Source: Candidatus Aminicenantota bacterium
Lineage (GTDB): Bacteria; Acidobacteriota; Aminicenantia; UBA2199
Assembly: GCA_023135565.1 (NCBI GenBank)
Contig: JAGLSW010000298.1
Span: 1 to 57,834 of the forward strand
Length of the DNA: 57,834 nucleotides
Reading direction: 5' to 3'
This document shows positions 27,882 to 54,296 of this stretch, piece by piece; positions within the stretch are counted from its first letter, which is position 1, and the number at the start of each line of letters is the position of its first letter. The notes beneath the pieces are model-generated. The model was not told the DNA's origin. It made no database searches and worked only from the letters and a program-made list of their open reading frames with translations. The position numbers and the translations under genes are program-made.

Positions 27882-28609
27882 GCGCTCAAACGAAAATCGA
27901 ATGGTGCGATGCGACGGTAAACGTAGCATGGCACTGCCACAATAATGATTGCCCTTACTGCGCGGCCCGCAGAATAGCGAAACTAAGGGCGGAATATGTC
28001 GGGAAAAAGAGAGGGTACAGCCCTGATCTCATTGCAAAGATGAAGCGTTTCGAGTCCGGTTTGTTCCCGGATTGGAAAAAAATCATAGAGAAAACCTGCA
28101 AAACCAGGAAATCGAAAAGGATTTTCTTTTCGTTCATGGGTGATATTTATTATTTCAGTCGCGAAATGTTATATCAAATATTCGATGAATTTGGGAAATA
28201 CCCTCAGCATACATATCTATTTTTGACTAAATATCCGAGAATATATGTTGACGAACTCGAACTATTCGCAAGAAAAGACATCAAAAAACTAACAGGGATG
28301 ACGGTAACCTGCAATGCTGATTATCTGGAATGCTACACAAGATACACCGGACTTTTCCAGACTGGATATTTTGATTTCATCTCTCTGGAACCCCTGGTAG
28401 AGGATATTAACCCAGAATGGCTGAGATTCTTCAAGTGGGTAATTATAGGGAGTGAGACCGGGAACCGGAAGGGAAAAGTAGTGCCAGAGTATGACTGGAT
28501 TGATAAGATTGTACAGTACTGCATATCTAATCGAATCCCGGTATTCTGCAAGGACAACCTGAAAGAGGTTTATCCATCATACTTTTTATATCAGGAGTTT
28601 CCAAAATGA
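27878..28609 (+). CDS. DUF5131 (phage Gp37/Gp68-type) protein
   Basis: 243 residues. The opening TKIEWCDATVNV, the cysteines in WHCHNNDCPYCAAR, and the patterns FFSFMGDIYY, YLFLTKYP, FDFISLEPLVEDI and WVIIGSETG match DUF5131, a radical-SAM-like family common in phages near DNA-modification genes. The exact reaction is unknown. It overlaps the next gene by 4 bases. Confidence 0.82.
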   Translation: MSAQTKIEWCDATVNVAWHCHNNDCPYCAARRIAKLRAEYVGKKRGYSPDLIAKMKRFESGLFPDWKKIIEKTCKTRKSKRIFFSFMGDIYYFSREMLYQIFDEFGKYPQHTYLFLTKYPRIYVDELELFARKDIKKLTGMTVTCNADYLECYTRYTGLFQTGYFDFISLEPLVEDINPEWLRFFKWVIIGSETGNRKGKVVPEYDWIDKIVQYCISNRIPVFCKDNLKEVYPSYFLYQEFPK

Positions 28610-29832
28610 AAGCATTATCTATTCAACAGCCCTGGGCGTGGCTTATAGTCAATAGAATCAAACCGATAGAAAACAGGACGTGGAAAACACCATACAGTGG
28701 CCCGGTACTCATTCATGCAGGCAAGAAAGTAGACAGACAGGGTTATGACTGGGTACTGGAGACTTTTAAAAATCATGAATTTATTAAAACTATGCCCACT
28801 CTTGAAAAAATGCCCACAGGCGGAGTAATTGGCGCGTCATATATATATACATGCACTAAAATAAGTAAGGAAAAAATTTGGAAAGGTCATAATTATGCCC
28901 CCTGGTATATTGGGCCATATTTCCTTGAATTGTATAAGCCAAAAACCTTTGAAATGGAATTTATACCCTGTCCAGGTAAGCTGAGATTTTTCGATATTCC
29001 ACTAAAGATTGAAACCAACAGAGCATATCGCGAAAATTGCCTTGCGACAATGCTGCGGATGCCTTCCGGCTTCATTGATCTAACTGTAACCTCCCCACCT
29101 TATGATGATTTAAGGGAATATAAAGGAGGAGTAAAGGCTTTCGATTTTGAGGAGATAGCTGGCGAACTCTACCGGGTTACAAAGCCCGGTGGTGTTGTAG
29201 TGTGGGTTGTTGGTGACCAGACGAAAGATGGTAGTGAAAGCGGTACTTCCTTCATGCAGGCTTTGTATTTCAAAAAAATTGGATTCAACCTGCATGACAC
29301 TATGATTTTTAAGAAGAAAAATAGAATAGTAACGAATCACAGGCGATATGAGCAAGAATTTGAATTTATGTTTGTGCTCTCAAAAGGAGAGCCAAAAACA
29401 TGGAACCCCATAAAATTACCCTGTGTGGAAGCCGGAAAGAAACGGAAGTGGAAAGACACCTGTGTCGGTTCAAAAAATACGAAAAGCTCAAAAGCTGCAC
29501 GATACCGAAGTGGGCGTGTAACCGTAACCGGAAGTGAAAAAACAAAGGGGAACATATGGGAGTACGCCACCGGCGCGCATATGACAAAGGATAAAATTGC
29601 GTTTGAACATCCCGCCATATTCCCGGAAGGTCTGCCCCGGGACCATATTTTTACCTGGACAGATCCCGGTGACGTGGTCTATGATCCCATGGCCGGTTCC
29701 GGCACCGTCCCCAAAATAGCGAAGCTTGCCGGGAGGGAGTGGATTGCTTCCGAAGTAGTGCCTGAGTACTGCGATATAATTGATAAACGGTTGAAAAACA
29801 CATTTAAATTTCCCCCAAAGGAGGTAGAGTGA
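28606..29832 (+). CDS. ASCH domain fused to a DNA amino-methyltransferase
   Basis: 408 residues. Residues ~1-130 are an ASCH domain (IQQPWAWLIVNRIKPIENRTW ... SGPVLIHAGKK). Residues ~145-405 are a methyltransferase with motif IV TSPPYDDL near 163 and motif I YDPMAGSGTVPKIA near 360, the beta-class order, and look complete. ASCH domains bind RNA or modified nucleobases, and one subfamily hydrolyses N4-acetylcytidine. The fusion suggests that the enzyme senses or acts on a modified base or RNA while methylating DNA; this is inference. Confidence 0.88.
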   Translation: MKALSIQQPWAWLIVNRIKPIENRTWKTPYSGPVLIHAGKKVDRQGYDWVLETFKNHEFIKTMPTLEKMPTGGVIGASYIYTCTKISKEKIWKGHNYAPWYIGPYFLELYKPKTFEMEFIPCPGKLRFFDIPLKIETNRAYRENCLATMLRMPSGFIDLTVTSPPYDDLREYKGGVKAFDFEEIAGELYRVTKPGGVVVWVVGDQTKDGSESGTSFMQALYFKKIGFNLHDTMIFKKKNRIVTNHRRYEQEFEFMFVLSKGEPKTWNPIKLPCVEAGKKRKWKDTCVGSKNTKSSKAARYRSGRVTVTGSEKTKGNIWEYATGAHMTKDKIAFEHPAIFPEGLPRDHIFTWTDPGDVVYDPMAGSGTVPKIAKLAGREWIASEVVPEYCDIIDKRLKNTFKFPPKEVE

Positions 29833-45298: not shown

Positions 45299-48211
45299 AT
45301 GTCGGGTGGAATATTTAACGCAGGTGCCGTAGTCGTTAAAATGCAAGCGAAAATGGATGAATGGAATGCATCCACCCGCACAATAAAAAAAGACATGACA
45401 ACCATTCAGGGGTTTGCTGCCAGGAATGAGAAGCAACTGAAAAAGATGTCCGGTTCATTTGCTAAAGTTGCTGCCGTCACCACCCTGGCGTTTACCGTTT
45501 TCCTGAATTCATCGATTAAGCTAAACAAAGGACTTGCCAACGTTGCAACCCTGGCGCCGAAATCGACCCAACAAATTCTAAATTTAAAAAGTGAAGTTCA
45601 AGACCTCAGCATCAAGTATGGAAAGGCTGCCGAAGATTTAACAGGCGGCTCATATCAAATCGTCTCAGCTTTTGGTGCACAGGCCCTGGCAAGTAAAAAA
45701 CTTGACCTGACTGCACGGGCCGCCGCCGCGGGCATGGCAACAACGGCAGACACCCTGAATTATCTCTCCGCCGTTACTAAAGGGTACAATAAAACCACCG
45801 ATGAAGCATATGAACGAGCCTCCGATCTCGGATTCATGACGGTCAAGCTTGGGCAAACCACTTTCCCGGAGTTGGCCGCAAGTATTGGCAGGGCAATCCC
45901 CACTGCGGCGAAAATGGGGGTGGGTGTTGCCGAGTTGCACGCCGAGTTCGCTACATTGACCGGTGTGACCGGGAACGCCGCCGAAGTGAGCACCCAGGTT
46001 GCGGGTATTCTCCGGGGAATGATAAAACCCACCCAGGGAATGAAAGCTGCAATCAGTGAGCTGGGTTACTCCACAGCGGAAGGCATGATTAAAAACCTGG
46101 GCATGGTGGGGTCATTAAAGGCGTTGATCGGGACTACAGATGGTACTTCCGAGAGTGTGGGGAAACTGTTTCGCCGGGCCGAGGCTCTTACCGCCATATT
46201 TGCTTTGACTGGAGCGCAGGCTGCTGATTTCAAAAGGAAGTTTGCCGAAATGAAGGAAGCTGCAGGGGCTACGGGAGAGGCTTTTATCGCAATGTCGAGC
46301 GGCATCAACAAAACCGGCTATGAATTTGAGCAGACAAAACAAAGAGTAGCTGTCCTCAGCCAGAATATCGGTGATTCGCTGATACCGATTTTTTCAACAC
46401 TCCTTGATATCGTGTCTCCCGGTATTACCCTTTTCTCAAATATGGCTGTGAATTTCAAAGCGCTTCCGGCACCGATCAAATTCATTACCACCGGTATGAT
46501 AGCGCTTACCGGGGCTACGGTGGCCTTAATCGCTATGAAAGCAAAGCTATTGGTCTTATGGGGAAAAATCCCTGCCAGACTTGCAAAAATGGCGGTTGCA
46601 ATGGGGCCATATGTTGCGGCAATTATGGCAGGATATGCGGCCTACACCGCAATAAAGGCTGCTGCCGAAAAAGCGGGCAAAGCTCATGATAAACATATGG
46701 GTATCATTGCCTCCACCGCACAAAGAGAAAAGAAAATTTTTGACGCTCTAATCGCCTTTAAAAAACAGGCTACCGCGGAAGACCTGGGCATATACCGGCA
46801 GTCGATAGCGATGAAAAAAACGCTGCTTTTCGCATCTCATGAGCAGAGATTGAAATTTCAGCAGAACTTCCTATTGAAAAACAGTGCCAATTTTAGTAAT
46901 TTCTGGAAAAACCGGCAGAAAAATTTGAAAGGAAACTTAAATGATGAAAACGTTCAGACCGATGAGCAGAGGCAAAGCATAGCTGCGATTCTAAAAAAAT
47001 CCAGGGAAACGCAAAAGCAGGCCACTCTCAATGAATTCGACTTCCGCATCTGGAAGGCCCGGCAGGCATATGAGGCAGAGAAGAAAATTCTCGATGAAAA
47101 CCGGGCTTCAAAAGAAGAATTCATAGAGCTTCAAAGAGGGTATAATTCCGAACTCAAAGCAATAGAAAAAGACCGGCTTGAATATAACACCCAAAAACAA
47201 AAAGAGGAAAACGAAAAAAGACAGGAAGCAAATGAAGCCTTCTACGAACACAGAAGGTTGCAGATAGAGGAATTTGATGGTTTCGTCCGGGAGCAAGATA
47301 CTTTGGCGGAGTTCGAGGCCCTTACCGGCCGGGAACGGCAGCGGGCGGAACTTGACCGCTGGCATCAAGAGCAGCGGCAGAAGTTAATCGCGCTCCTCAG
47401 GTTCAACATACTCCAGGGGACTACATTCACGGCAATGCGCATAGCCCTGGAAAAGCAATTTTACAACGAAAAAAATAAATTAGACGATGATGATGAAAAA
47501 ACATGGATTGGAAGGCTAAACAAAAAGCTAAAGAAATACTATGAGTACTTCCAGGTTACCTTTGCCAGTTTCAAAGGATACCTCGACGCGAAGCAAAAAA
47601 AGTTAGATACAGAGTACGAAAAAGAAAAGGCTTTTATAGAAGCGAACATCACGGATGAAGCGGAAAGGAAGGCTGCCCTCGAAAAACTCGACGCGGAATA
47701 CACCGAAAAGCGGCGAAAAATGGAAAGGCAGAAGGCCATGTACGCCAAGGTTAGCAATATCGCATCTGCAATAATGAACACCGCTGCCGCGGTAACGAAA
47801 GCTCTCACCGCGGGTCCTTTCCTCGGCCCGGTGCTGGCCGGTATAATCGGCGTTATGGGAGCGGCGCAGGTGGCTATGATCGCGCGCACCCCTATTCCTA
47901 TGGCGGTAGGTGGAAGGGTAAAAGAGGAAGGAATGGCCTTACTCCATAAAGATGAAGTTGTCATGCCTTATGAAAGGGCAATGCAGATAGAGCGCACTAA
48001 TACTTTTGTTGAGAGGCGTTTTTCAAGCCCACCGCGGGAAGCGGCAGGGACCCGGGGCGGAGGCGGGGATACAGTCAACATATATATCAACACCATCGAC
48101 GGTTCGAACCTTGAAGAGATTTTTGATACAAAGATAATCCCCCTAATCCAAAGCCGTACCAGAACTGAAAACCTTTTAATTTATAAAGGGGCCGTAAAGG
48201 AGCATGTCTAA
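45299..48211 (+). CDS. Tail tape measure protein
   Basis: 970 residues, the largest structural gene. N-terminal helical TP901-type tape measure region (MATTADTLNYLSAVTKGYN, GVGVAELHAEFATLTGVTGN), hydrophobic helices near 395-450 (with MIALTGATVALIAMKAK), a long coiled coil (~500-810), and a late hydrophobic Ala/Gly segment (~830-870). Sets tail length; at about 0.15 nm per residue a tail near 145 nm is expected. The stop overlaps the next start. Confidence 0.93.
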   Translation: MSGGIFNAGAVVVKMQAKMDEWNASTRTIKKDMTTIQGFAARNEKQLKKMSGSFAKVAAVTTLAFTVFLNSSIKLNKGLANVATLAPKSTQQILNLKSEVQDLSIKYGKAAEDLTGGSYQIVSAFGAQALASKKLDLTARAAAAGMATTADTLNYLSAVTKGYNKTTDEAYERASDLGFMTVKLGQTTFPELAASIGRAIPTAAKMGVGVAELHAEFATLTGVTGNAAEVSTQVAGILRGMIKPTQGMKAAISELGYSTAEGMIKNLGMVGSLKALIGTTDGTSESVGKLFRRAEALTAIFALTGAQAADFKRKFAEMKEAAGATGEAFIAMSSGINKTGYEFEQTKQRVAVLSQNIGDSLIPIFSTLLDIVSPGITLFSNMAVNFKALPAPIKFITTGMIALTGATVALIAMKAKLLVLWGKIPARLAKMAVAMGPYVAAIMAGYAAYTAIKAAAEKAGKAHDKHMGIIASTAQREKKIFDALIAFKKQATAEDLGIYRQSIAMKKTLLFASHEQRLKFQQNFLLKNSANFSNFWKNRQKNLKGNLNDENVQTDEQRQSIAAILKKSRETQKQATLNEFDFRIWKARQAYEAEKKILDENRASKEEFIELQRGYNSELKAIEKDRLEYNTQKQKEENEKRQEANEAFYEHRRLQIEEFDGFVREQDTLAEFEALTGRERQRAELDRWHQEQRQKLIALLRFNILQGTTFTAMRIALEKQFYNEKNKLDDDDEKTWIGRLNKKLKKYYEYFQVTFASFKGYLDAKQKKLDTEYEKEKAFIEANITDEAERKAALEKLDAEYTEKRRKMERQKAMYAKVSNIASAIMNTAAAVTKALTAGPFLGPVLAGIIGVMGAAQVAMIARTPIPMAVGGRVKEEGMALLHKDEVVMPYERAMQIERTNTFVERRFSSPPREAAGTRGGGGDTVNIYINTIDGSNLEEIFDTKIIPLIQSRTRTENLLIYKGAVKEHV

Positions 48212-49314
48212 TGGCGAATATCCTTTTTTTCTACAAAAATGATTGGGACACCCCGGAAGCTGGGTGCAGTTCGGCACACAGCAGCTTCCCGGTCGCCAAC
48301 ACCCAGGAAAGAATTCTCATGAAGCCATGGAGATCGAACTACGGCCCCGGTTCCGGGTGGGGTACTTTTAAAATCGACGAAACTAACCGGTATATATGTT
48401 TTCAAGAAACCGGGCAACCACAGCAGAGCGCGGAGATTTCAACCGGTACATTCAACGCCGCTACTCTTGCTGCTGAAATCGAATTGCAAATGGAAGCCTC
48501 CGGCACCCATGATTTTATCGTCTGGTATGATGAAGAGCAGAATAAATTCAGAATTGCTTCAAATACCGGCACCTTTGCGGTGTTGGGTTCGCAAACCACA
48601 AACGCCATCTGGTCAACCATCGGATTCGATGAGGTCGATACCGAGGATACACTTGATAGCTATACCGCAAATGAAGTGCGCATTCACACCGCAGAATGGC
48701 TCAAGATCAATAGCGCAAACGTTACTGTGGCCGGTGTTTTTGTATTTCACCACAATATCCAGAACTCCGGCGACGTGAAGGTGCAATTCTCGAATGATGA
48801 CTTTATAACCATCGAGTATGAGTATTCGTTGCTGAAAGGTGACGGCGTGATGGTTAAGCTGCTGCACCCGTCCCCTCTGCAATACAACGACATACGGATT
48901 TTCATCCAGGACAAAAGCAACCCGGCAGGGTATGTTGAGTTTGGCCGGGTTTGGTTGGGCGATTGCTTTGAGCCGAAACACGGTTTTTCTCCGAATTTTT
49001 CCGATAAACCAAAAGACCTATCAAGAGTCATTGTTGGCGGCGGTGGGCAGGCGTTCTCCCTGATAAATCCGCATATACAAAACCAGTCATACAGCTTTGG
49101 TCTGGCTGACCCGAAAGATAAATTTGATGAAATATTTAACGAGGTTGGACTGGCTAAGCCTCTTGTGATAGTTGAGAAACCGCTCACACCTATATCGGCA
49201 GAATACCTGGAACCGGAAAAGCATTCGCATTACTGCCGGTTGTCGAGTTGGAGCATGAAGCATGAATCAGGAAACAAATTTTCGTTGAAAACAGGTAGAA
49301 CGGAGGAAAAATAA
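48211..49314 (+). CDS. Tail-tip protein
   Basis: 367 residues following the tape measure gene, the usual place of the distal-tail protein. Beta-rich with jelly-roll-like stretches (YICFQETGQPQQSAEISTGT, VFVFHHNIQNSGDVKVQFSN). No specific family recognised. It is coupled to its neighbours by TAATG overlaps on both ends. Confidence 0.7.
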   Translation: MANILFFYKNDWDTPEAGCSSAHSSFPVANTQERILMKPWRSNYGPGSGWGTFKIDETNRYICFQETGQPQQSAEISTGTFNAATLAAEIELQMEASGTHDFIVWYDEEQNKFRIASNTGTFAVLGSQTTNAIWSTIGFDEVDTEDTLDSYTANEVRIHTAEWLKINSANVTVAGVFVFHHNIQNSGDVKVQFSNDDFITIEYEYSLLKGDGVMVKLLHPSPLQYNDIRIFIQDKSNPAGYVEFGRVWLGDCFEPKHGFSPNFSDKPKDLSRVIVGGGGQAFSLINPHIQNQSYSFGLADPKDKFDEIFNEVGLAKPLVIVEKPLTPISAEYLEPEKHSHYCRLSSWSMKHESGNKFSLKTGRTEEK

Positions 49315-49458: not shown

Positions 49459-49914
49459 ATGGCAGGGAAAAAAATATCAGAACTTTTTTTGATTCCGGCA
49501 ATTGCGGGCGATGATGTGTTTCCAGTTGTTGACATTTCATCCGATACTACAAAAAAAGTAGCGTTTTCAAATCTCACTGCTTGCATTGCTCCAAATATGG
49601 TAGGAACCGAAGGGATCACAATCTCCAATGACACTATAACAATAACATCACAATGCCCTATTGTTCTTGTAACTATCGATACAGAAGGAGGGGCGGCCAC
49701 CGATGACCTCAAGCAAATCAATTGCTCAATCATCGGGCAATTCCTGATATTACAAATAGCGAACAATGACCATATCGTAACCATCAAAGACAGAGCTGTG
49801 GAAGGCAAAATATACGGAATGGGGGATTTTACATTTGCAACGAAAAGATCAAAATATGTCTGCGTGTACGTAGACGGGCGCACCGATGAGATTTCAAGGA
49901 GCGCAAACGCATGA
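49459..49914 (+). CDS. Tail/receptor-binding-region protein
   Basis: 151 residues. The opening KKISELFLIPAIAGDDVFPVVDISSDTTKKVAFSNL is the head-binding/collar-type N-terminus of many phage tail fibre proteins. The rest is beta-rich and short, so it may be an adapter for a fibre rather than a full fibre. ATGA overlap with the hub gene. Confidence 0.68.
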   Translation: MAGKKISELFLIPAIAGDDVFPVVDISSDTTKKVAFSNLTACIAPNMVGTEGITISNDTITITSQCPIVLVTIDTEGGAATDDLKQINCSIIGQFLILQIANNDHIVTIKDRAVEGKIYGMGDFTFATKRSKYVCVYVDGRTDEISRSANA

Positions 49915-52025
49915 GCATATGGGACTCGACAGGTCATGGAGCATATTCCACTGAGTATACAGGTGGTGAACTTGTCCAGGTTGACGAAAACGGGACAAGT
50001 CTCGTCAGGAAACTGTCGGTTTCAAACTGCGATTCGACTCCCGGTTCATATTTTCATGACATGGATAATTGCCGGCTATATGTTCACACTTCCACGGGTG
50101 ATTCGCCCCGCAGTGATAACTATAGTTTCCAGGGGTATACCTGGTTAGCCATAACCAACCGGCAGGAACCGGGTAATCCTGTAGATTTCATCCCCCAGGA
50201 GGGGGAACCTGATGGCGCGGCCCGGAATGCATATTATATGCCAATATTGGCGCCAACTCCCATTTCCCTTACCCAGGCCGTGAGTGATTTTTATACTTCC
50301 GCCATGCGTTCACAATTCGGGTCGCTCTCCTTTGGCGACCCCGCCTACTGGTGGGCAAACAGCCAGGTGTTAAATTTCCACAACAAAAAGGTTGTTATCA
50401 AGGTTGGCAATGTAGGTGACGTATATTCGGATTTTCAAACGATTTTCATAGGTAAGGCCGGGACTCCTGATTTTTCAGATTCGGGGCTGAGGTTGTCTCT
50501 TAGTGACATCCGGGAAGGGGTGCTCAGGCAAATACCGGCAGACCGATTCGACTCCACCGCGTACCCCAACCTTAACTCACAAGCTGAGAATAAGGTTATT
50601 CCAATTCTGTGGGGTATAAAATATGGAATTCAACCGGTTAAAATCGACACCGCCACCCACAGGTACAAAGTGACCAAAACGATATTTCTTAGTGGGACAA
50701 CATATCCGATAGAGAGTATTACCGTCTACAAAGACGGTGTGCAGATATACGAACCCGGCGATTACGCATCAGACCTAAACAACGGAGAATTCACACTCGC
50801 AGCGGACCCGGGAGAGGCTGAAATTACTGTGGATGTTCATGGCTTGCAGTGCAAGTACGATTTTTCAACCGGTACTCCTACCCTTCAATTCTCAGAAAAC
50901 ACCGCTGACATCCTGTTTTTTATCCTGCTGGAACTAAACGGGATTCCAGTCGGGCAAATTCACCTGGAAGATTTTCAGGCACTCCAATTGAAACGTACCC
51001 AGCGCATCGGGATATACCTGACCCAGGCCACGGAAACCATTGAGATGATTCGCCTACTGCAGCGGTCGGCAGTTTTTCACTTCATCCCCACGCAGGACGG
51101 GAAGTACACCGTGAAATATTACGACCGGGGTGTACCTGCGGACGCAAAATCAATCCAGGATTATAACTATGGACCCGGAGGAGTGTCGATGACCCAGGAG
51201 ACGAAATCCGCATTCCAACATGTGGTACTCCAATATGGAAAATCCCCGCATGAGGATAATTACCAGACGGTCTACTCCTCAGAGCCGGAAACCGGATATC
51301 GATATGGAAACGAGGAAACACTCACTATTGTGACTGCACTCGCCAGCCGGGAGGAAGCCGAAGCCCTACTTGAGTTCTATTTGAATCTTGTCAAAGAACC
51401 GGCAAAAAAAATTACTGCTGAACTGCTGGGAGTAGGTGTTAACATCATGCCTACCGAAAAGGTGAAATTTTCCCGCTCTGTCAAAAACGAGAAAGGCGAA
51501 ACGATTAGTATAGCAGTTAACGAAGTGTACGTAATTCTTGAAGCCAGAAAGGATGTGTCGGGAAAAAAAACCAGGATTGTTGGGCTGCTCGATGAGCAGG
51601 TACAGGGGGATATTCTCCATACGGACACTGACCATGCAGAGAACTACACTGAGTATCCCGATATAGTCAACACCGAACACACAAACGATCACACGAACGT
51701 TCCACACATAGACCACAACAATAGCACTAATGAACCCCACATTGATGAAAGAGAAAATTATACCGACCATACCGATCATGATTATTATACTGAGTCCCAT
51801 GCGAACTATACGGACGGTAGTTTGCACTTTGATAATCCCGTCAATAAGCATACACTCTACAGTGATGGCCCCGGCTACCTTCAAAGTCATGAAAATGTCC
51901 CGCATCAAGATTATCCAGACACGACAAACATACCACGTATCGACTGGCATGTGAACGGGCACGGTGACCATAACGATCACGGTGACCTTCATATGAATGT
52001 TCCGCATACAAATTCGGAGTTATAA
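49911..52025 (+). CDS. Tail-tip/hub protein with an H-x-[D/N] repeat tail
   Basis: 704 residues. Residues ~100-565 have the layout of phage tail-tip hub proteins (GDPAYWWANSQVLNFHNKKVV, NKVIPILWGIKYGIQPVKI). From residue 570 to the end, 135 residues contain 20 His; 17 are in H-x-D or H-x-N motifs, with five Y-x-D motifs as well, often as NVPHxD or NYTD units. No Cys, few hydrophobics. Such a tail is likely exposed at the tip. The next gene is a radical-SAM/SPASM enzyme, so the tail is the probable substrate; metal binding at the tip is an alternative. Hub identity moderate, repeat certain. Confidence 0.78.
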   Translation: MSIWDSTGHGAYSTEYTGGELVQVDENGTSLVRKLSVSNCDSTPGSYFHDMDNCRLYVHTSTGDSPRSDNYSFQGYTWLAITNRQEPGNPVDFIPQEGEPDGAARNAYYMPILAPTPISLTQAVSDFYTSAMRSQFGSLSFGDPAYWWANSQVLNFHNKKVVIKVGNVGDVYSDFQTIFIGKAGTPDFSDSGLRLSLSDIREGVLRQIPADRFDSTAYPNLNSQAENKVIPILWGIKYGIQPVKIDTATHRYKVTKTIFLSGTTYPIESITVYKDGVQIYEPGDYASDLNNGEFTLAADPGEAEITVDVHGLQCKYDFSTGTPTLQFSENTADILFFILLELNGIPVGQIHLEDFQALQLKRTQRIGIYLTQATETIEMIRLLQRSAVFHFIPTQDGKYTVKYYDRGVPADAKSIQDYNYGPGGVSMTQETKSAFQHVVLQYGKSPHEDNYQTVYSSEPETGYRYGNEETLTIVTALASREEAEALLEFYLNLVKEPAKKITAELLGVGVNIMPTEKVKFSRSVKNEKGETISIAVNEVYVILEARKDVSGKKTRIVGLLDEQVQGDILHTDTDHAENYTEYPDIVNTEHTNDHTNVPHIDHNNSTNEPHIDERENYTDHTDHDYYTESHANYTDGSLHFDNPVNKHTLYSDGPGYLQSHENVPHQDYPDTTNIPRIDWHVNGHGDHNDHGDLHMNVPHTNSEL
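51618..52022 (+). repeat. Coding repeat region, H-x-[D/N] motif array
   Basis: Nucleotides for hub residues 570-704. The recurring units are protein-level motifs (H-x-D/N, Y-x-D/E, N-V-P-H), while the DNA is not a clean tandem repeat and codons differ between copies. This argues for selection on the protein motif rather than recent slippage. Confidence 0.9.
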
Positions 52026-52028
52026 AAA

Positions 52029-53390
52029 ATGAGTCATTACGCAATAAAATATCTCGGATGTAACGCAGGCTGTGCATCCTGTTATGAGAATGTCATAAGG
52101 GGATGTAATCAGCAGAATTATGACATCACTAAGATGATGAACACTGTGAAATCAGTGTTATATCGTGAAGTCAAAAAGCAACGGCGAAACAAGAATCTGA
52201 AAAATTTCAAGCGCCACTTTCAGAAACCGATGCTCCACGGAGGAGAACCCCTGCTAATGAAAACTAACGATATTGAAACCATCTTGAGTTATGTTTTTTC
52301 ATTTTTCAAGTGCAGTGGCATTCAGACAAATTTGACACTTCTTAAAGATGAGCATATCGATATTTTCAAAAAATGCAAAACTCATGTGGGTGTGTCGCTC
52401 GACGGCGATTATCCGGAACTGAATAGAGGGCGGTTTGCTGCCGGGGCCCCACTTAAAAAAATCATAAAAGATACCGGTAAGGTACTTGAAAATATGGCCC
52501 GGCTTCGGGAAGCCGGGTTGGATATGTCCTGTATCATCGTGCTAAGAAAATACAATGCAGCCTGTGACAGGCTTGACCGGTTAGTCAAGTTCATCGAAAG
52601 GCTTCGGGATGAGTTTGGAATCATTTATTTCAGAACTAATCCCGGTATCGTTTTTGACCCGAAACTTCGGCCTATCGAAGAGTTGACCACTGGGGAATTG
52701 TTTAACGCCTGGAAGCGTATTTCAAATATTCAGGGAGTAATGATACAGCCTTATAGAGATATGGTTGATCTTCTGATGGGGTCTCGGGACACAAGTTGCA
52801 ATTTCTCTGAATGCGACCCCTGGAAAACTTCGGCGGAAATCCCCATCTCCGGGAATGGTGAAATCGGGAACTGTCTGAAAAATGGTGCCGCCCCGGACGG
52901 CATACAATCCCTTACGGCAGATCGAAGGTCCCGCCAGAGGTATCAATTACTCGAACAAATTCCTTTCGACCAGGGAGGGTGTAAAGACTGCCGGTACTGG
53001 AATATCTGCTATGGCGGCTGTCCTGGTGCCGGTATCGATAACGATTTCAGGAACCGCACCCGGTTTTGCGAGGCGTACAAGCTGTTTTATGAGTTTGTTG
53101 AGAAAAAGATAAAAGACCTTTTCCCGAATATCATGCTGGTGACAGATGCGCACCCCCTGCCCATACAACCCGGCATAACCGATATTCTCAATACTATTAC
53201 CCGCGGTACCTGGCGGCAGGAATCACGGGTTGGAGTCAATAATTTCAAAAAATTGCTCAAACAAAAAAAACCAAAGAAGGGCAGCCCCGGGACTGGACAC
53301 ACCGATGTTGGACATCAAAATCAGCACGGTGATTCCAATAGCCACAAGTGGCTCAATGAAAATCCCTGGTATAAGGGAAGTAGGAGGTAA
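52029..53390 (+). CDS. Radical-SAM/SPASM peptide maturase
   Basis: 453 residues. The 4Fe-4S motif C-N-A-G-C-A-S-C (C11, C15, C18), the GGE motif HGGEPLL near 72, and VGVSLDGDYPELNRGR near 122-138 define a radical-SAM barrel. A SPASM-type Cys cluster follows near 318-350 (CKDCRYWNICYGGCPG ... RFC). These features match anaerobic sulfatase-maturase/peptide-modifying rSAM enzymes. The C-terminus (~421-440) carries HTD, HQN and HGD, the motif of the upstream hub tail. It lies 3 bases downstream of the hub gene. Inferred role: crosslinking or otherwise modifying the hub tail. Confidence 0.9.
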   Translation: MSHYAIKYLGCNAGCASCYENVIRGCNQQNYDITKMMNTVKSVLYREVKKQRRNKNLKNFKRHFQKPMLHGGEPLLMKTNDIETILSYVFSFFKCSGIQTNLTLLKDEHIDIFKKCKTHVGVSLDGDYPELNRGRFAAGAPLKKIIKDTGKVLENMARLREAGLDMSCIIVLRKYNAACDRLDRLVKFIERLRDEFGIIYFRTNPGIVFDPKLRPIEELTTGELFNAWKRISNIQGVMIQPYRDMVDLLMGSRDTSCNFSECDPWKTSAEIPISGNGEIGNCLKNGAAPDGIQSLTADRRSRQRYQLLEQIPFDQGGCKDCRYWNICYGGCPGAGIDNDFRNRTRFCEAYKLFYEFVEKKIKDLFPNIMLVTDAHPLPIQPGITDILNTITRGTWRQESRVGVNNFKKLLKQKKPKKGSPGTGHTDVGHQNQHGDSNSHKWLNENPWYKGSRR

Positions 53391-53393
53391 CTC

Positions 53394-54296
53394 ATGGAGC
53401 TAATGAAAAAATTCGACCTCCCCCCCTCTCTTGATCTCAACTGGATATCACAGCAGGCCCTGGATACCTGGGAGGGAGTCATTCAGGATATTTCCTTGAT
53501 GATACAGGAGTTGGAAATTGAATCGGTTGCTGCCGGGCACAGGCCCTGCGCCTGGCGTACCATCGGCCTGAAAGAAATAGATGACTTCTCCCGGAGGTGT
53601 GCGGAAATTGACCTTTCGGTGCTTCCGGTCAAACAGGTCGGCGATTGGGGAAACGGCTTTTCTCATTTCAATCCCCCCGTAAAAGAGGGCGAAACTCCAA
53701 ATATCTACTGCATCATATATAGAAACATCCAGGACGCCAGGGTACTGGCAAAAGCGCATGATGATGAAGATCATATCACCCAGGGCAAAATGCTGGGCTT
53801 CCCGGATTGCTGCGTGAAGTTTTTTGACCGGGTGTGGAAAGATGGGTATTTCGATCCCGTCTGGCAGATAGCTCTTGACGATGAGAAAAAGAGTCCTCCG
53901 GGCAAATTACCCGGGGAAAGCATCAGGACGCTCGATGCGCACCCCTTCAGTAATCCTTTGCTACGATACGTCGGCGTCCGGGTCGGCTTCCACGTCCCCT
54001 GCTCATTTCACTGCCAAAAGTCAATAGCTGTGGCCCAGCAGCGGCTATCTCTATGCCTGAAGTCGGAGAGAAAAGACCTGATCCCACTGCTAACCTCACT
54101 GCTGTCAATGCCGGTGGAGTGGAATGTATATCGAGGAATAGCGGTGGTTAAGACCCCAGTTTTCTATCTGAGAACCAATTCTATCCCCACGAAAGAGCAC
54201 TACACAGTGAGACTGCAGGGGACATTCAAACCCAGGGAAGCCGCCAGGGGCGTTTGTTTCCCGTTTCAGGAGAATCCAGATGACAGTAGAAAATGA
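53394..54296 (+). CDS. DUF483-like Cys-Cys protein, third gene of the cassette
   Basis: 300 residues. GKMLGFPDCCVKFF (near 132-142) and FHVPCSFHCQKS (near 199-209) match the DUF483 pattern, with a Cys pair and a C-x-x-x-C. DUF483 has no firm function. It lies 3 bases after the rSAM gene with a 17-base overlap with the next, so it is probably part of the same process, e.g. a partner, reductant or substrate-recognition protein. The family call is by motif only. Confidence 0.72.
   Translation: MELMKKFDLPPSLDLNWISQQALDTWEGVIQDISLMIQELEIESVAAGHRPCAWRTIGLKEIDDFSRRCAEIDLSVLPVKQVGDWGNGFSHFNPPVKEGETPNIYCIIYRNIQDARVLAKAHDDEDHITQGKMLGFPDCCVKFFDRVWKDGYFDPVWQIALDDEKKSPPGKLPGESIRTLDAHPFSNPLLRYVGVRVGFHVPCSFHCQKSIAVAQQRLSLCLKSERKDLIPLLTSLLSMPVEWNVYRGIAVVKTPVFYLRTNSIPTKEHYTVRLQGTFKPREAARGVCFPFQENPDDSRK

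Follow-up and report, generated by a model that had tools for sequence, protein, structure and literature searches.

The window analysed here is a stretch of 57,834 nucleotides, the complete contig JAGLSW010000298.1 of a metagenome-assembled genome of Candidatus Aminicenantota bacterium, and it carries a phage tail module (Table 1). Genes for a terminase large subunit and a minor head protein lie upstream of the tail genes. A DNA methyltransferase gene (phrog_67, 28606-29832) is also found upstream on the same phage contig. For the tail protein encoded between the tape measure gene and the hub gene a curated family was sought and none matched. The hub-like protein as a whole spans 49911-52025, and its C-terminal array of H/Y-x-D/N motifs is followed by genes for a radical SAM (rSAM) enzyme and a DUF483-like protein.

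Table 1. Features of the tail module and of the adjoining rSAM/DUF483 genes in the window (L numbers denote other loci)
Feature	Position	Strand	Evidence
Tape measure protein (tail module context)	45299..48211	+	PF10145 / TIGR01760 above cut-offs; syntenic in L185-L187, L189, L190
Tail protein, distal-tail-like, between tape measure and hub	48211..49314	+	Same-place homologue in L185-L187, L189, L190
Hub body, without repeats	49911..51617	+	phrog_8917, E 2e-19; array-less homologue L181 (G053) stops at matching residue
Hub C-terminal H/Y-x-D/N array, proposed substrate	51618..52013	+	17 HxD/N and 5 YxD/N, direct count
Radical-SAM/SPASM enzyme, 453 aa	52029..53390	+	PF04055 44.3 bits versus cut-off 29.5; family alignments and trees
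CX3CX2C [4Fe-4S]/SAM motif (C11, C15, C18)	52059..52082	+	Invariant in alignments
SPASM region, Cys C257, C262, C282, C318, C321, C327, C331, C347	52797..53069	+	Eight Cys invariant in alignments
Substrate-motif tail of rSAM: HTD, HQN, HGD, further His	53298..53351	+	Aligns with sister tails; GHGDAHGDEHGDKPHGDHTDV
DUF483-like partner, Cys/His motifs GFPDCC and HVPCSFHC	53394..54296	+	PF04467 26.4 bits versus cut-off 25

The enzyme belongs to the radical SAM superfamily by both its CX3CX2C motif and its PF04055 score. It carries eight invariant cysteines after the barrel, where at least seven auxiliary-cluster cysteines define a SPASM protein, and its TIGR04085 score of 25.9 bits lies slightly below the cut-off of 27. 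None of the named cyclophane maturase models (DynA, AmcB, YhhB, XyeB, GrrM, FxsB) is reached: the best score, 66.7 bits for DynA, compares with a cut-off of 450 and the others are far lower, which places the enzyme outside every named family. It is not a member of the His-Xaa-Ser family either (HxsB model, 22.6 versus a cut-off of 370). In a fold search of the PDB, the closest solved structure is ChlB, a multiple-cyclophane synthase (PMC12636437), followed by the anaerobic sulfatase-maturating enzyme.

The partner is a member of PF04467 (Table 1) and matches the DUF483 protein of Thermus phage Cumys (phmmer 1.4e-50). Its AF2 model has a pLDDT of 92, and a fold search of the PDB returned nothing below E 0.001 (best 2guk, E 0.04). 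The conserved GYPxCC and HLPCSxxC motifs of this protein suggest a metal or Fe-S site. Most phage DUF483-like proteins of 425-490 aa, including that of L145 (10164-11501), have a C-terminal class I methyltransferase domain with the motif LDLGCGNG; the domain is absent from the versions of the window, the Thermus phages and L038.

The motif count of the window array was matched by none of 20,000 shuffles. The array is the most diverged in its clade: the whole hub contains 10 HxD and 8 HxN, versus 22-35 HxD and 3-9 HxN in its sisters, whose homologous arrays hold 25-44 HxD/N. The hub homologue L181, from another genome, ends where the array would start, and the remaining 1.5 kb of its contig contains no rSAM gene. 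A more general rule emerges from residue pairs at distance two in 59 arrays (11,808 residues), for which the expected numbers were taken from shuffles of the arrays, themselves rich in H and D. HxD (1675 versus 360 expected), HxN (219 versus 88), FxN (87 versus 17.5) and YxD are all in excess. In contrast, HxE is avoided (1 versus 31.7), as is HxH (7 versus 331), and HxS is depleted (7 versus 178), so that the third residue is not that of His-Xaa-Ser substrates. The arrays therefore have H, Y or F at position i and D or N at i+2, the substrate pattern of triceptides. Three-residue cyclophane enzymes link Trp, Phe, Tyr or His at i to Asn, Asp, Arg, Ala or Ser at i+2 (PMC11002830).

At most sampled loci, an array of aromatic-x-D/N motifs adjoins the rSAM gene, on carrier proteins unrelated to one another; NCBIfam has no family for the repeat proteins. 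Four loci from acidobacterial genomes (L050-L053) have an rSAM-DUF483 fusion beside peptides of 62-98 aa composed largely of HxD repeats, a layout resembling the classic arrangement of a RiPP or modified-peptide cluster. The same three-gene module of repeat protein, rSAM and DUF483 is present in the Thermus phages Cumys and phiMa. It has been noted there before, and the passages of PMC11437467 considered here propose a role in DNA modification, place some relatives near deazapurine genes and make no mention of HxD arrays or of an enzyme tail. For the module as a whole, modification of DNA seems very improbable to us, because the arrays adjoin the rSAM on such different carriers and because the folds closest to the enzyme belong to SPASM proteins that modify peptides or proteins. 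In the genome of the window itself, a second copy (L002, G000:C1031; 328-2625, 2579-3736) is an rSAM-DUF483 fusion, and the protein preceding it ends in HVK/PHVK repeats. Its relatives L055 and L056 also carry HxK arrays, indicating that the third motif residue can be Lys. Other rSAM families lie near YxN and HxS repeat proteins on the large viral contigs L178 (179 kb) and L177, where modification of phage repeats may have arisen independently.

The C-terminus of the window enzyme contains HTD (residues 424-426, 53298-53306), HQN (residues 429-431, 53313-53321) and HGD (residues 433-435, 53325-53333). These three motifs in 12 residues bear out the cluster that a sequence-only reading had placed at 53285-53360. 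The same reading held that the enzyme has no such motif elsewhere. This is not exact: another HxD, an HID at residue 109, belongs to the catalytic core, where it sits in a conserved D-E-H-I-D-I-F segment. A fourth tail histidine, H439 of SHKW (53343-53345), lies approximately where sister enzymes carry their next HGD, and the tail as a whole is a diverged form of sister tails with 4-5 units (HGD-HGD-HGD-HGD-HTD). Chance clustering was considered and ruled out by shuffles and control proteins. At least three HxD/N within 14 residues were reached by 62 of 200,000 shuffles of the whole protein (P about 3e-4), by only the hub and the adjacent rSAM among the 218 window ORFs of 60 aa or more, and by no member of a by-catch set of 58 generic SPASM rSAMs. 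After the cluster, the window enzyme has the segment W-L-N-E-N-P-W-Y (53346-53372), which is absent from its closest sisters. In the rSAMs of L145, L150, L154, L155 and L161 a short conserved end, approximately G-I-P-A-x-x-L-x-E-x-P-x-W, occupies the same place.

When the rSAM, the hub body or DUF483 of the window was used singly to scan viral contigs, there were no matches, and relatives were gathered by alignment-based scans, which yielded roughly 22 loci from bacteria and 60 from viruses, some of them on truncated contigs. The first relatives were the Thermus phages Cumys, phiMa and phiLo. In Cumys and phiMa the HxD-rich repeat protein, the rSAM and the DUF483 protein adjoin one another; in phiLo the rSAM adjoins DUF483 and the HxD proteins lie about 6 kb downstream. 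The rSAMs of all three phages end in an HxD tail, PEHGDYTDHGDAPHGDHWDG in the case of Cumys. A search with DUF483 led to L185, a sister locus with the same synteny as the window. Aligning the window and L185 rSAMs then led to six viral loci of the same clade, and with these sisters the long branch of the window in the first tree was resolved. All eight loci of this clade (the window and L185-L191, with five non-redundant sisters) combine an array, a tailed rSAM and DUF483. The gene order of hub array, tailed rSAM (HGDAHGDEHGDKPHGDHTD) and DUF483-like gene is kept in all seven further loci, the five non-redundant sisters included, and the sister tails read HGDAHGDEHGDKPHGDHTDV or near variants of it.

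For the whole family, we compared 69 enzymes differing by more than 5% in their cores and counted as a tail at least two HxD/N. A tail is present in 43 of the 69 and, for nearly all of its bearers, shuffles of the tail give p<0.01. It is found in 41 of 47 phage enzymes versus 2 of the 22 encoded on bacterial contigs, and the contig of one of these two, L038, has a phage-type carrier protein. We also considered a strictly phage-specific tail. The distribution is mostly of this kind, but L039 (Chloroflexota), with HisRS and NAD kinase as chromosomal neighbours, is tailed too. Among the 26 tail-less enzymes are a clade from freshwater phages and almost all of those from chromosomes, which makes it unlikely that the tail is required for catalysis. 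Presence and absence of the tail imply about 6 state changes on the family tree. The alignment of homologues proposed by the sequence-only reading therefore finds the tail conserved, in all window-clade sisters among others, rather than missing from most homologues that have an array. In four phages (L157, L160, L162 and L163) two rSAM paralogues stand in tandem, and the first has a tail of 190-310 residues with 14-24 HxD/N of the PHGDHTD type, being nearly an enzyme with its own array.

Codon changes are consistent with this picture. In a clade of 11 enzymes, the share of comparisons with a nonsynonymous difference is 0.12 for the motif H/D codons versus 0.31 for the core and 0.59 for other tail columns, part of this gap being built in because the motif itself decided which columns were taken; synonymous change of the tail motif codons is similar to that of the core. 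Among window-clade sisters, with no choice of columns, the tail shows 0.16 versus 0.23 for the core. The retention of the tail in dozens of other phages indicates that it is under selection. It is neither a chance product nor a private oddity of the window.

Among phages, tailed enzymes accompany arrays of at least 26 motifs and tail-less ones mostly arrays of 17-19 (Mann-Whitney p 0.009, kinship ignored), which would fit a role of the tail in staying on long arrays. At L135 (2908-3945), a phage array is mainly of the FxN type (20 FxN in 120 aa) and the adjoining rSAM, which belongs to the same enzyme family, is tail-less.

The sequence-only reading equated the tail with the hub motif. They do share HxD/N clusters, but they differ in dialect. 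The middle residue is Gly in 135 of 230 tail motifs (59%) versus 297 of 1894 array motifs (16%), and the third is Asp in 228 of 230 versus 1675 of 1894. The preference for Asp holds even beside N-rich arrays (40/42 in tails versus 205/396 in the arrays; Fisher p 4e-9), where the HQN of the window is one of the two exceptions. Across relatives, the H and D of the tail are conserved while the linkers vary. These differences bear on another suggestion of that reading, an exchange of repeat sequence between the two adjacent genes, by which the tail would be a recent and functionless copy of the array. A motif common to neighbouring genes invites this idea. However, the best DNA match between tail and array in the window is 9 bases, equalled by 14 of 60 codon-randomised tails, and the tail is kept across deep branches of the family. 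A recent exchange is not supported, and a functionless copy has very little to recommend it; tail and array could conceivably share an ancestor in the distant past.

Both tail and arrays might instead be metal ligands, comparable to the His-rich tails of metallochaperones, and no substrate at all. His and Asp are good ligands, and the enzyme itself is an Fe-S protein as judged by its Cys motifs. However, chelation requires neither a fixed spacing nor aromatic substitutes, whereas 228 of 286 tail histidines have Asp at exactly +2 and the arrays use FxN and YxD beside HxD while shunning HxE and HxH. On these residue patterns pure metal binding appears unlikely, and we give it only a small chance.

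The sequence-only reading also suggested self-modification or a docking mimic, and both stand up to the present data. The docking mimic is the main rival to the explanation preferred below; in it, the tail would be an unmodified tether that binds DUF483 or an exosite through array-type recognition and so keeps the enzyme complex assembled or attached to the array. There are several data consistent with this possibility. First, the tail is short and multivalent, and in a modelled family member (L154) AF2 predicts it to be disordered next to a high-confidence core; the active site of this model is free of the tail and, the tail being disordered, the model is uninformative on docking. Second, seven chromosomal relatives have DUF483 fused C-terminally, at the position of the tail, and none of the seven has the tail cluster. 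However, at least 12 unfused chromosomal enzymes are also tail-less, so that phylogeny confounds the link between fusion and tail loss. Third, a strict D at the third position whatever the D/N use of the array suits binding. On the other hand, a pure mimic would be expected to be non-reactive, yet the canonical substrate motif is kept. Overall, we regard docking as rather unlikely. The DUF483-like proteins of the same loci served as a negative control and showed no motif cluster; the idea that loss of the enzyme tail is offset by a motif tail on DUF483 was accordingly dropped.

Our preferred reading is that the gene encodes the maturase of a phage-borne rSAM/SPASM plus DUF483 module, whose substrate would be the repeated aromatic-x-Asp/Asn motif on a tail protein (hub or tip). 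That the array is the substrate is very likely, and cyclophane chemistry is, with somewhat less assurance, probable. Given the motif rule and ChlB as the nearest fold, the aromatic ring of His (or Tyr/Phe) would be joined to the beta-carbon of the Asp or Asn at i+2, which would leave many three-residue cyclophanes along the array. The enzyme C-terminus would be a flexible extension with a compact copy of the array motif, engaged by the machinery that reads this motif, that is, its own active site and/or the DUF483 partner. The tail keeps the canonical motif and not a dead variant, suggesting that it is read by the array machinery and probably cross-linked in cis. The strict retention of H-x-D likewise favours a motif that is truly read, probably as a substrate; the restriction to D and the preference for Gly could reflect a role other than that of a substrate. 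With such a built-in substrate tail, the enzyme complex would stay engaged, or primed, while it works on long arrays. For this explanation as a whole, a maturase that cross-links the hub array and bears a copy of its motif that is probably modified in cis, we see roughly an even chance; modification in cis, taken separately, falls a little short of that. More tentatively, the family may be one of rSAM enzymes that autocatalytically cross-link their own substrate motif and are dedicated to poly-cyclophane arrays on phage tail tips.

Comparison with known systems may provide some perspective. The triceptide synthases XncB, OscB, MscB, YxdB, HaaB and YhhB, as well as ChlB, share with the window family the rSAM plus SPASM fold and an aromatic residue at i with D/N or a similar residue at i+2. 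Moreover, ChlB, the best fold match, acts repeatedly on one precursor. In contrast to these enzymes, the window family has as its proposed substrate a long array on a structural protein of the phage tail, a constant DUF483 partner and the substrate motif on its own C-terminus, and the window enzyme reaches the cut-off of no NCBIfam cyclophane model. The His-Xaa-Ser system (HxsA/HxsB/HxsC) also pairs a repeated His-x-residue substrate with rSAM maturases, but its third residue is Ser. A precedent for self-modification is the borosin omphalotin precursor methyltransferase, in which the substrate forms part of the enzyme's own C-terminus and is modified autocatalytically (PMC7878506). By analogy, the substrate-type motif in the tails of the present family may play a comparable part. 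However, the borosin enzyme performs backbone N-methylation, whereas the window enzyme is an rSAM/SPASM protein and does not qualify as a methyltransferase, and the proposed main substrate here is a separate protein. In the literature searched, with subscription journals largely outside it, no paper on phage tail cyclophanes or on an enzyme motif tail was found.

Enzymes of the rSAM type that modify peptides are known in the context of small natural products. In the present case, such an rSAM seems to belong regularly to the tail module in many phages and to act on a structural protein. Cross-linking of the arrays is a possible account of the rSAM/DUF483 module, whose only previously suggested role was to modify DNA. 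The conserved tail also provides a direct and simple handle on how such enzymes are kept on a repetitive substrate. If cross-links do form in the arrays, the tips of phage tails would hold a type of modified polymer on which the literature searched contains no paper, and this would bear on how stable the tip is and how the host is recognised. If self-cross-linking is true as well, the family would be a radical-SAM counterpart of borosin-type self-modification, together with a cross-linked part of the virion.
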